Source: an uncultured Planctomycetia bacterium (lineage in GTDB: Bacteria; Planctomycetota; Phycisphaerae; Phycisphaerales; SM1A02). Taken from it: DNA of 38,516 nucleotides. This document shows positions 29,745 to 33,145 of the stretch, one piece after another; within the stretch, counting starts at the first letter, position 1; every line of letters starts with the position of its first letter. A program made the translations under genes and the position numbers. A model generated the notes under the pieces. That model had not been told where the DNA came from. It saw only the letters and a program-made list of their open reading frames with translations, and searched no databases. The stretch lies in assembly GCA_937919205.1 (NCBI GenBank), contig CALFOZ010000055.1, forward strand, positions 1-38,516, in the 5' to 3' direction.

Positions 29745-30497
29745 TTACGCAACCGCGCGCATTGATCTTTGCTTGTCAGCGCTTGCCACTGGCGAACGCG
29801 CGATTTCCTTTTTTGGCTCTTGCAGTGTGGACACAAGATGCGCCGGACTTTTCGCCACACGACTGGCGCCAATTTCCTCGGCCAAACCATCGGCGCGATT
29901 GAACACGCCGCCCCCCACCACAATTTCCATGCCTGGCAGAGCGTTCACGCCTTTGACCGCGTCAATGATGGCGCGAATGCTTGGCGCGTCGCTTGCCGCC
30001 GAAGCAAAGAGCACCAAGAAATCTGGCCGGCGCTGATGAACCTCTCCAAGAATTTCGTCATGCGACACTCCGCCGCCGCCAAAAGTCACTTCAAATCCAG
30101 CGGCTTCAAGCAAGTCCGCGGCAAGTTGACCGCCCAAATCCTCGTTCTCATTTGGCCCGCAGAACAAGATCACGCGCTGACCGTTACGTTGCTGACGGTG
30201 GTACCCCAGTTGCAAGTGATCAACCACATTGCGCAGAGCGCGCGTTGCATAGTTGAACGCCACTTGCTCAATTTGATCCTTGCGTGAAAGCTTATGAAGC
30301 GTCTCATGAATCGGCCACGCCACGCACTCCGCCATGGTCTCGCTGGAAACGCCGCCAGCCAAAGCGCGCGCGACAATCGCGCGGACATCCTCACGATTGC
30401 CTTCGATTAATTTTGGAAGAAGCCGATCGACAATCATGTCGGGCGCAAATTCCGCGTTGAGTTCTGAAGTTGCATTGTTGTTCTTTGTTGTGTTCAT
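29745..30497 (-). CDS. Cobalamin-binding-domain protein lacking the axial histidine
   Basis: 250 residues. N-terminal helical cap (about 20-100, MIVDRLLPKLIEGNREDVRAIVARAL) then a Rossmann-type B12 domain (108-230): VILFCGPNENEDLGGQLAADLLEAAGFEVTFGGGGVSHDEI, PDFLVLFASA, and ALPGMEIVVGGGVFNRADGLAEEIGA. The fold matches stand-alone B12 regulators and corrinoid proteins. In the usual DxHxxG loop the His is absent (NENEDLGG, 116-123). No helix-turn-helix is seen, so it resembles AerR/PpaA-like antirepressors more than CarH. A good Shine-Dalgarno (GGAAG) is present. The C-terminal 25 residues are basic. It may act as a light or oxygen regulator, not proven. Confidence 0.8.
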   Translation of the reverse strand: MNTTKNNNATSELNAEFAPDMIVDRLLPKLIEGNREDVRAIVARALAGGVSSETMAECVAWPIHETLHKLSRKDQIEQVAFNYATRALRNVVDHLQLGYHRQQRNGQRVILFCGPNENEDLGGQLAADLLEAAGFEVTFGGGGVSHDEILGEVHQRRPDFLVLFASAASDAPSIRAIIDAVKGVNALPGMEIVVGGGVFNRADGLAEEIGASRVAKSPAHLVSTLQEPKKEIARSPVASADKQRSMRAVA

Positions 30498-30749
30498 GAT
30501 TGGTGTCTTCCAAAGTGATTCGTGTAGACCTCTTGTCGAGCGAATCGAGTTGCTTCACCGCAACTCCGTGCGGCAGGAACAAATCGGACGCATGCGCACG
30601 CCATCGCCAACACTTGTTTAAAAATGAATATCGGAACCTGCGCCATTGGTTATGCGACACATAGCCCCGTATTTAAGCCTAAAAACGCTGTTTTAAAGCG
30701 TGAGCACGTGGCAACGAAATACACGGCAACTGCCCGTAGGATCAAAGCC
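30498..30749. other. Divergent intergenic region between the B12-domain gene and ubiE
   Basis: 252 nt. Contains the Shine-Dalgarno of the B12 gene, a TTGGTT-18-TATTTA candidate promoter (30646-30675), an ACGCT-GTTTTAA-AGCGT dyad, and TAGGAT ending 7 nt before the ubiE ATG. No small gene seen. If the B12 protein is a regulator, this is the first place to look for its target. Confidence 0.35.
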
Positions 30750-30752
30750 ATG
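30737..30752 (+). promoter_or_regulatory. Predicted -10 box of leaderless ubiE transcript
   Basis: TAGGAT (30737-30742) then 7 nt and ATG 30750. The AGGA inside could instead be a Shine-Dalgarno; spacing 9 nt makes the -10 reading better in view of the pattern elsewhere. Confidence 0.4.
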
Positions 30753-31526
30753 ACAAATGTTGGTCCATCATGGACGCCGGATCAATTGCACAGCGACCCG
30801 CACGCTAATCCAGAGAAGGCCACGCGCGTGCAAAGCATGTTCAGCGCCATCGCGCCAAGTTACGACTTGAACAATCGCATTCACTCATTTGGTTTGGATC
30901 AATCATGGCGCAAGCGCACTGTGCGCGAAGTGCGCGCGCGCCTAGGTTCACTGCGCGACAAAAATATTCTTGATGTGGCATGCGGCACCGGCGACTTGAC
31001 GGAATTGTTTTATAAAGCTGGTGCCAACACCACTGGTGGCGACTACACGCCAGCCATGTTGGAGATTGCCGAGATCAAGTCGCGCAAGCTGAACAACTCA
31101 AGCGACCGCATTCGCTATGTCAATGCTGACGCCACCAAACTTGCGTTCGACAACGCGTCATTCGACGTGGTCACCATCGCGTTTGGATTGCGCAATGTTT
31201 CCAGCCCCGACCAAGCCATCGCGGAATTTTTTCGCGTGCTTCGTCCAGGCGGCGTGCTTGCCATTCTGGAATTTGATCAACCACAATCAAAGTTCGTGCG
31301 ATTTTTTCACAACCTTTACACCGAGCGCATCATGCCGTTCACCGCCACGCTGATCGCGCGCGATCGCTCTGGCGCATACAAATATTTGCCGCGCAGTGTG
31401 GCCACATTTCTTTCTCCGCAAGGAATTGCCCAATTTGCCGCGGCTTCTGGCTTTGAACACATCCAGCATTATTCGCTGACATTTGGCACATGCGCCCTCA
31501 CGCTGGCCACGCGTCCTCTCGTATGA
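30750..31526 (+). CDS. ubiE: Demethylmenaquinone / ubiquinone methyltransferase (UbiE/MenG)
   Basis: 258 residues. SAM-dependent C-methyltransferase of quinone synthesis. Family motifs: MFSAIAPSYDLNNRIHSFGLDQSWRK, NILDVACGTGDLTELFYKAG (SAM motif I), YVNADATKLAFDNASFDVVTIAFGLRNVSSPDQAIAEFFRVLRPGG, LEFDQPQ, and YKYLPRSVATF near the C-terminus. I use ATG 30750; the open frame continues upstream to 30624 but that part has no family match. In a Planctomycete the quinone is probably menaquinone. The degenerate amidohydrolase follows after 12 nt. Confidence 0.94.
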   Translation: MTNVGPSWTPDQLHSDPHANPEKATRVQSMFSAIAPSYDLNNRIHSFGLDQSWRKRTVREVRARLGSLRDKNILDVACGTGDLTELFYKAGANTTGGDYTPAMLEIAEIKSRKLNNSSDRIRYVNADATKLAFDNASFDVVTIAFGLRNVSSPDQAIAEFFRVLRPGGVLAILEFDQPQSKFVRFFHNLYTERIMPFTATLIARDRSGAYKYLPRSVATFLSPQGIAQFAAASGFEHIQHYSLTFGTCALTLATRPLV

Positions 31527-31538
31527 TGAAATTCAACA

Positions 31539-32432
31539 ATGGCTTTTGATTCGCTCACCTACGCGTGGAATCACTCCGAATTGCTTCGGCCCGCGCTTGA
31601 AGGCCGCTTTGCCGCCGACGCGCATTCGGGTTGGAGCCGTCTTGACACCAGCTTTGACACGCTTGCAGAAGCCGTGCGCCCACTCACTGGCGCCATTGTG
31701 TGCGGCATCCATTGTGACACACTTGGCGTACGCGTTCCACACGCCGACATCGCCGCGGCTGTGGCGCGCAATCCATTTCGACTTGTTGGTTTCGCGGGCA
31801 TCGATCCGCTGGCGCCTGATTGGAGTGAGCAACTTGCGCAGGCGCGCTCGCACAACTTGCAAGGAATTTGCGTGGCGCCCGCGGCGCAAGGCATTCATCC
31901 CTCGCATGACACCGCCATGAAATTGTGGGAGCGCTGTCAAGCCGATGGCATACCCGTGATCTCGCTTCCATTGGGCGCGTCGATTGGAAGCGCGCCAATT
32001 GACTTTGCCCGACCAAGCGCGTGGGATGAACCGGCGCGGCACTTTCCAAAATTAAAAATTGTCATTGGCGGATTTGGTTGGCCGTGGACCGACGAATGCT
32101 TGGCCATGTTGACGCGACATCCGCAACTGTTCACGGAAACTTCCATATTGGTGGCGCGCCCTTGGCGCTTGTTGCCGGCGCTTGCCGACGCGCAATCACT
32201 TGGAGTGCTGGAGCAAATTTTGCCGGGAAGCGGATTTCCATTTCACACACCAAGCGCCGCGTTGCAAAGCATTTTGACTGTAAATCGCTGGGCAAACGAG
32301 GCTGGACCACGCCTCAGCCCGGTGTCACTGCGAGCGATCACCCAACGCAATATCTTTAACATATTGGCCATCAGCCCCCCGCTACTTGCGCCCAAAGATG
32401 TGGCCGCACCAATTTCGGAAGAACCACTGTGA
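31539..32432 (+). CDS. Amidohydrolase-2 fold protein lacking metal ligands (probable pseudoenzyme)
   Basis: 297 residues. The TIM-barrel amidohydrolase_2 framework is clear: RLVGFAGIDP, LQGICVAPAAQGIHP, LWERCQADGIPV, and HFPKLKIVIGGFGWPWTDECLAML. Three ligand positions are changed. The His of the usual VLxHxG is missing (VISLPLG), the His of AHLGGPW is Gly (IGGFGWPW, 177-183), and the Asp of GSDYP is Gly (GSGFP, 230-234). The N-terminal D-x-H-x-H is also not visible. It keeps the fold but should not bind the catalytic metal. It sits between ubiE and a lipoprotein whose start overlaps its stop (GTGA). Confidence 0.75.
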   Translation: MAFDSLTYAWNHSELLRPALEGRFAADAHSGWSRLDTSFDTLAEAVRPLTGAIVCGIHCDTLGVRVPHADIAAAVARNPFRLVGFAGIDPLAPDWSEQLAQARSHNLQGICVAPAAQGIHPSHDTAMKLWERCQADGIPVISLPLGASIGSAPIDFARPSAWDEPARHFPKLKIVIGGFGWPWTDECLAMLTRHPQLFTETSILVARPWRLLPALADAQSLGVLEQILPGSGFPFHTPSAALQSILTVNRWANEAGPRLSPVSLRAITQRNIFNILAISPPLLAPKDVAAPISEEPL

Positions 32433-33145
32433 AAAAAACTCCACGCACTAATTTAGAAAAAAAATTCGCAAACACATTGCGAAATTATTTTAGAAATGTG
32501 TTCGCGCTTGCAAGCACCGTGATCCTTGCGGGCGTGCTTCCAGGCTGTTACAGCTTTCAGTGGCCGTGGTCCGCAGGAACAAGTTTGGTGACCGCGGGTT
32601 TGGCGCCCAATCCAATCAAGCTTCCATTTGAACCCAAGCAATGCGTCTACACCGTGGAGCCCGCGCAGACAACATTTTTTCTAAGCGACTTCACGCCCGA
32701 GGAACTTGCCGCGGGCGGTGACTTGACCGGCCAAGTGATCAACATTCAATTGCTGTGGGAGCCACGACCTGGCTACACACCGCTTGATCCCACCACCACC
32801 AATGTGTCCATTCGTCTACTTGTGTTTTCAAATGGCGAGGTTGGCATGTACGGTGGCGGCGGATTTGCGTGGCCGCGTGGCACGCCTGGTGAATCCAACA
32901 TGGAACTGCGCATGACTGGAAGTAATCTTTCCTTGATCGCCAAGACCAAGGACTTTGTGGATTTGCTGAGTCCCGGTGAAATGTTGGGTAGCGTGGACGC
33001 GACGTTCAATGAGCAAGCGGCAATTGTTCTGCGACGAACCGCCAGCCAACTTATTTCAAACAAGTTGGGCGTTGTGCGATGGGTTGACTCGATGCCGCTG
33101 ACGGATTTTCATGTGGCGGTGGCCGATGAAACCGCGCCGCGCTGA
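32429..33145 (+). CDS. Lipoprotein of unknown function
   Basis: 238 residues from GTG 32429, which overlaps the amidohydrolase stop as GTGA (32429-32432). Signal with lipobox: ...VFALASTVILAGVLPGC, Cys about 42, preceded by a charged n-region of about 22. The mature domain is mostly beta-strand and Gly/Pro-rich, with YGGGGFAWPRGTPG and SPGEMLGSVDATF. No named domain seen. The coupling to a dead amidohydrolase fold suggests the pair act together at the envelope, but that is inference. Confidence 0.75.
   Translation: MKKTPRTNLEKKFANTLRNYFRNVFALASTVILAGVLPGCYSFQWPWSAGTSLVTAGLAPNPIKLPFEPKQCVYTVEPAQTTFFLSDFTPEELAAGGDLTGQVINIQLLWEPRPGYTPLDPTTTNVSIRLLVFSNGEVGMYGGGGFAWPRGTPGESNMELRMTGSNLSLIAKTKDFVDLLSPGEMLGSVDATFNEQAAIVLRRTASQLISNKLGVVRWVDSMPLTDFHVAVADETAPR

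Follow-up and report, generated by a model that had tools for sequence, protein, structure and literature searches.

The window analysed here, a stretch of 38,516 bases that constitutes the entire contig C55 of a genome of 2.49 Mb (241 contigs, 95.6% complete), encodes an Amidohydro_2 protein without metal ligands (hereafter AMH), which we believe, with somewhat more confidence than doubt, to be a retained cytosolic pseudoenzyme. The protein probably binds something rather than catalyses. Its relatives in the same order form a graded series, from five active-site residues to none, of one protein next to the same neighbour gene.

The window protein (Table 1) matches the Pfam model PF04909 (Amidohydro_2) over residues 64-250 with an E value of 3.3e-15 (57.1 bits for a cut-off of 26.4), as do, at E <= 0.01, all 79 members of A1, our AMH alignment and profile (79 of 86 sequences). 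No NCBIfam model matched the window AMH at E <= 0.1. Against the PDB, the AMH sequence profile found 3irs with an E value of 1.1e-18 and LigW with one of 1.7e-4. An AlphaFold2 model based on 11 sequences (mean pLDDT 59.7) is good over much of residues 84-230 and mostly below 50 over residues 1-82. With this weak model as query, poor in its N-terminal quarter, Foldseek again placed 3irs (BB4693) first (E 1.1e-9), with structures of gamma-resorcylate decarboxylase (gamma-RSD), ACMSD and LigW lower, and the 50 matches listed are mostly entries titled amidohydrolase or decarboxylase. The open frame around the window AMH is only 300 codons long and thus leaves no room for a leader. Similarly, with the starts of homologues placed by aligning them to that of the window protein, no hydrophobic leader was detected in any of the 79 A1 members, the 12-residue mean hydropathy staying below 2.0 throughout the first 40 residues (highest value 1.86). 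The same genome carries a second PF04909 protein, L001 (contig C105, positions 1453-2502 of the minus strand, 349 aa, E 1.1e-43), which, unlike the ligand-less AMH, keeps all five site residues. A search of plasmid proteins with AMH returned 97 records, all below 60% identity (25-31% among the ten matches listed), and none of the open-licence papers listed for this topic deals, by title or abstract opening, with this AMH family.

Table 1. Positions in the window of AMH, its active-site columns and the neighbouring genes.
Feature	Position	Strand	Remarks
ubiE/COQ5-type methyltransferase	30624..31526	+	PF01209, E 1.1e-51; 12 bases upstream of AMH; start not certain, as the match to Pfam starts only at residue 65
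AMH, Amidohydro_2 protein without metal ligands	31539..32432	+	ATG start; 297 aa plus stop
Strand-1 HxH position, here Leu6-Thr7-Tyr8	31554..31562	+	Alignments
Strand-5 His position, here Leu143	31965..31967	+	Alignments
Strand-6 His position, here Gly178	32070..32072	+	Alignments
Strand-8 Asp position, here Gly232	32232..32234	+	Alignments; Gly shared by 43 of the 48 thinned rows without ligands
Lipoprotein	32429..33145	+	GTG start; 238 aa; no Pfam or NCBIfam match; four-base overlap with the AMH stop
Lipobox Cys40 of the lipoprotein	32546..32548	+	Cys conserved in all 79 sequences, each with Gly, Ala or Ser as the preceding residue

Active-site columns were assigned in the window protein by alignment, through intermediates, to full-site relatives. 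Alignment A2 shifts the strand-1 motif of two far relatives (L041 and L042) by four residues with respect to the wide alignments, and the wide ones were trusted. The strand numbers of these columns are those that we take to apply to the family, and the strand-6 His, which we count as a fifth site column, presumably lies near the metal. The accessible text of PMC8187880 describes characterised relatives in which one divalent metal is held by such residues, and gives as metal ligands Glu8, His10, His164 and Asp287 in gamma-RSD and His12, His14, His195 and Asp323 in IDCase; the strand-6 His is absent from its ligand list. In AMH, the metal ligands of the ACMSD, gamma-RSD and LigW type are missing, with Leu6, Tyr8, Leu143 and Gly232 in their place, and the strand-6 His is also missing (Gly178). 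An earlier note on this DNA had read VISLPLG, IGGFGWPW and GSGFP at the ligand positions. These motifs are found at residues 140-146, 176-183 and 230-234, and the claim that all visible ligands are lost is not only borne out but widened, the strand-1 HxH (Leu6, Tyr8) being gone as well. Among the 16 rows from the same genus (window included), all five site residues are gone in 15, which read LYLGG (nine rows) or LYAGA (six rows) at columns 6, 8, 143, 178 and 232, the order used for all five-letter patterns below; the sixteenth, a fragment at a contig end, reads --LGG. Site loss in AMH thus appears to be more than chance, and not the peculiarity of one odd gene.

We found an AMH homologue in 85 of the 101 related genomes, the window genome included, and none in the other 16; the match is free of stop codons in 85 of 88 match rows. 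Of the 85 homologous loci studied with their flanks (L043-L127), 83 are best matches and two, L094 and L096, are second copies; genome G055, in which the AMH gene is split across two contigs, lies outside this set. Across the 86 aligned sequences, His is found at column 6 in 32, at column 143 in 11 and at column 178 in 10, and Asp232 in 9. The full site (HHHHD) occurs in L062, L067 and L080, all of family f5, and in the paralogue L094; L056, L065, L070 and L077 read HHHQD, and L053 and L075 read HHHHG. For families f1-f4 (the window belongs to f1), we used a thinned set of 48 ligand-free rows, which excludes 15 close copies as well as L095, L107, L096 and L001: no site residue remains in 30 rows, one in 12, two in five and three in a single row. 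Without thinning, His143 and Asp232 are missing in all 64 f1-f4 rows (L001, L096 and the window excluded). Our search of the phylum covered 294 genomes, and site columns were read at 20 loci outside the order (L165-L184). Of the loci from the wider phylum, nine, L184 among them, read HHHHD, three HNHHD (L178, L180, L181) and one WQQHN (L183). Seven loci belong to sister families within the class (L165, L168, L169, L170, L173, L175, L182) and read HHLHD, HHHRG (four loci), HHHGG and HHHSG; these erode partially on their own, with the strand-1 HxH present in all seven.

The direction of change was read from a 93-row tree, which was built with the site columns left out and in which full-site relatives from the phylum served as root. 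Sixteen of the 109 rows were omitted, namely the fragment L107, the paralogues L096 and L001, the far L095, L041, L042, L183 and L184, and eight close copies. An earlier tree, in which L041 and L042 were the sole outgroup and L107, L096 and L001 were omitted, had long branches and open forks. In the 93-row tree, the outgroup side is made up of 11 rows from the phylum plus the paralogue L094, which comes from a genome of the order and is the single row counted on the wrong side by the program; H6, H143, H178 and D232 are present in all 12 rows. The remaining order rows form a clade of 74 (support 92/83). The f1-f4 clade contains 55 rows (support 99/98), with His143 and Asp232 in none of them and His178 only in L046. 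The fewest state changes needed for columns 6, 8, 143, 178 and 232 are 17, 14, 7, 6 and 6, respectively. Such counts are silent on loss versus gain, and it is the state of the outgroup that makes loss the natural reading. Thus, the intact site is the older state and has repeatedly changed later. The rooted tree also establishes descent from proteins with a catalytic site, as expected of a pseudoenzyme, and the loss is both broader and older than the earlier note could see.

The downstream neighbour of AMH is predicted to be a bacterial lipoprotein, with a hydrophobic leader and a lipobox Cys. In A3, our lipoprotein alignment and profile (70 of 79 sequences), the 12-residue mean hydropathy reaches 2.0 within the first 40 residues in 66 of 70 members. 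Searched member by member, these 70 sequences gave an attachment-site model of Pfam in one case and two chance-level matches, the A3 profile found no PDB chain at E <= 0.1 (best E 0.15), and the window lipoprotein found no match in NCBIfam. A structure model of the lipoprotein, with a mean pLDDT of 33.8, was rejected as meaningless. The gene is present in 94 of the 101 related genomes. In the phylum draw of 294 genomes (E <= 1e-6, ten candidates scored per genome), it was found in 13 of the 15 genomes of the order and in none of the 279 others, and no lipoprotein was seen within the short flanks examined at the 20 outgroup loci. The lipoprotein thus represents an order-wide family undescribed in Pfam and the PDB.

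The two genes are closely associated. As the earlier note had observed, the AMH stop overlaps the lipoprotein start, the TGA at 32430-32432 and the GTG at 32429 sharing four bases (GTGA). At 78 of the 85 AMH loci, AMH is followed on the same strand by a lipoprotein homologue, including L056, where a long open frame suggested an upstream position but the lipobox follows the AMH stop; no such homologue follows at the other seven, namely L090-L093, L095 and the paralogues L094 and L096. At all 78 loci the lipobox Cys codon lies 34-169 bases after the AMH stop, and start and stop overlap by four bases in 45. At the level of genomes, 80 of 101 have both genes, 14 only the lipoprotein, five only AMH and two neither (G026, 82% complete, and G060, 55% complete). 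Two of the 14 lipoprotein-only genomes, G051 and G073, carry weak A1 matches away from the lipoprotein gene, which we counted as paralogues. Five f1 genomes, from the family of the window, are devoid of AMH (L141-L145), and in these ubiE directly adjoins the lipoprotein gene; in G073, a GcvH gene (PF01597) directly precedes the lipoprotein gene, and a GcvH gene precedes AMH at L083. Next to AMH, ubiE is found upstream in the same orientation at 19 of the 85 loci and on the opposite strand at 31, so that the three-gene order of the window is one of two arrangements. A protein with a B12-binding domain (PF02310) is encoded at positions 29745-30497 of the minus strand of the window, and a homologue lies upstream at 36 of the 85 loci.

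The pairing is also seen with intact sites, as L062, L067 and L080 keep all five residues and have the lipoprotein downstream. Full sites being older in the rooted tree, these three loci imply that the two genes were paired before the site was lost. In addition, since the lipoprotein has a leader and AMH has none, the membrane should separate the two products. Their conserved adjacency suggests shared regulation or a shared pathway, not a complex.

Inside the genus, AMH has a median dN/dS of 0.127, ubiE one of 0.146 and the lipoprotein one of 0.140 (Nei-Gojobori, 51 pairs each, filtered at dS between 0.02 and 1.5), which indicates that AMH is under purifying selection and in use; retention by selection, another mark of a pseudoenzyme, is thus observed as well. 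Selection does not bear on the former site in a uniform way. When the 295 columns are ranked by entropy over the 48 f1-f4 rows (rank 1 being the most conserved), columns 6, 8, 143 and 178 rank 244, 171, 242 and 187; columns 6 and 143 are clearly variable, and columns 8 and 178 only middling. At column 232, Gly is now fixed, not drifting. Nine columns are invariant in the 48 rows: Asp4, Asp89, Pro90, Pro114, Pro159, Gly180, Ser231, Pro234 and Pro238.

AMH might nevertheless catalyse a reaction without a metal, using other residues at the mouth of the barrel, as does LigI, a metal-independent lactonase of the same superfamily. Purifying selection would fit such an enzyme, as would the presence of Asp89, Glu186, Ser231 and Asn249 in 48, 47, 48 and 44 of the 48 ligand-free rows. 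However, these four residues are also found in full-site relatives and need not mean new chemistry, and LigI retains its strand-1 His and strand-8 Asp, neither of which is left in AMH (Leu6, Tyr8, Gly232), which leaves this explanation rather unlikely. Metal chemistry could also persist if the site had been relocated to H120-x-x-H123 in the strand-4 loop, together with Asp89, Glu186 or Cys133. We screened for replacement ligands by comparing columns with a polar, charged or Trp residue in at least 60% of the ligand-free rows with the full-site rows, and counted 19 of these columns a second time. The columns that differ are H123, C133, W162, R158, R167, R265, W209, E69, E243, Y246, R261 and E269, of which E69, E243, Y246, R261 and E269 are missing from the window AMH, and the only usual metal-binding residues among them that it has are H123 and C133. 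Column 123 is His in 37 of the 48 ligand-free rows and Asp in 11 of the 15 full-site rows, Cys133 is found in 42 of 48 versus 2 of 15, and His120 and His123 occur together in 35 of 48, including the window, which has all three residues. This pattern makes a rebuilt metal site possible. Yet some rows whose old site is complete or almost complete (L067, L053) already carry H123, which thus did not originate as a replacement, and H120 or H123 is missing in 13 of the 48 ligand-free rows; we consider relocation decidedly unlikely. Ligands supplied from other positions would, according to the earlier note, have overturned its reading, and on this point the evidence is divided: the nine invariant columns are old and argue against such a supply, whereas H123 and C133, far more frequent where the ligands are gone than in full-site rows, leave room for it.

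Under another explanation, AMH would be a functionless gene in decay and heading for loss. The 14 genomes that keep the lipoprotein without AMH are consistent with this, as is the direct contact of ubiE with the lipoprotein gene in five f1 genomes, but neither the low dN/dS inside the genus nor the invariance of nine columns across 48 rows from four families is, and decay seems very improbable to us. The reading put forward in the earlier note, namely a non-enzymatic AMH that forms an envelope-associated unit with the lipoprotein, draws on the adjacency of the two genes, the short and consistent distance to the lipobox and the frequent four-base overlap. It does not agree with the leaders, as a hydropathy of 2.0 is reached by 66 of 70 lipoproteins and by none of the 79 AMH proteins, nor with the separability of the genes, as 14 of the 101 genomes have only the lipoprotein and five only AMH, nor with a pairing that predates site loss. 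Moreover, homologues that retain the ligands in the same context, which that note had itself named as contrary to its reading, do exist in the literal sense (L062, L067 and L080). An envelope unit is, in our judgement, the most improbable of the explanations weighed here. As for the proposal that ligand loss on an intact scaffold points to a binding role, its first half, loss on a conserved scaffold, is confirmed, and a binding role is also what we consider most likely.

Returning to a retained pseudoenzyme in the cytosol, the following course of events may be proposed. The ancestor of the AMH gene encoded an Amidohydro_2 enzyme, mononuclear and metal-dependent, of the kind of ACMSD, gamma-RSD and LigW, a step based on homology, with the fold taken from a weak model and the polarity from the rooted tree. 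In this planctomycete order, the f1-f4 clade as a whole and, independently, parts of the other families now lack the metal site, the rest of the barrel having stayed under purifying selection. The gene overlaps the lipoprotein gene and, in the genus, follows a ubiE-type gene (order, spacing and overlap are observed). The mouth of the barrel may be largely kept (Asp89, Gln117, His120, Trp183, Trp209, Ser231, Asn249), and AMH could bind a small molecule or a protein there without metal chemistry, perhaps as a sensor or an accessory in a pathway where the lipoprotein works, with co-expression, not a stable complex, as the tie between the two. Its function would be useful but dispensable, as 16 of the 101 genomes lack the gene.

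That columns 143, 178 and 232 each changed state six or more times within one class, with the operon neighbour and the scaffold kept, would mean a parallel shift to binding. A more tentative proposal, which we regard as possible without expecting it to hold, is that the selected function of AMH is not metal catalysis, and that a binding role of the ancestral enzyme became the sole function in parallel lineages, tied to the order-wide lipoprotein. The graded series provides natural intermediates and allows one to ask when and why an enzyme turns into a non-enzyme. It also calls for caution in annotation, as Pfam calls all 79 A1 members 'Amidohydrolase' and most of them are without the site.

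Among known proteins, AMH shares its Pfam family and fold matches with gamma-RSD, ACMSD, LigW and IDCase, all of which we take to be members of PF04909. The difference lies in the metal ligands, which gamma-RSD and IDCase carry according to the accessible text of PMC8187880 and at whose positions AMH has Leu6, Tyr8, Leu143 and Gly232. The top match in both sequence and fold is BB4693 of Bordetella bronchiseptica (PDB 3irs and 3k4w), an uncharacterised TIM-barrel protein on which we found no literature among open-licence papers. In the profile alignment, BB4693 likewise looks site-poor, its strand-5 column holding Met and its strand-8 column Ala; it differs from AMH in having His at the strand-6 column, and its strand 1 lies outside the alignment. 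L042 (Sulfolobales) and L041 (Spirochaetes) read AHFGWPWTDE where the window AMH reads GGFGWPWTDE and, unlike AMH, retain the HxH and both other His, with Asp at strand 8 in L042 and Asn in L041. Finally, the amidohydrolase superfamily includes pseudoenzymes, CRMPs and inactive dihydroorotase subunits, which belong to another branch and are not known to have a lipoprotein neighbour; like AMH, they have kept the barrel, lost the metal site and been retained. We rate AMH as a putative but well-defined pseudoenzyme family with natural intermediates, not as a new class of system.
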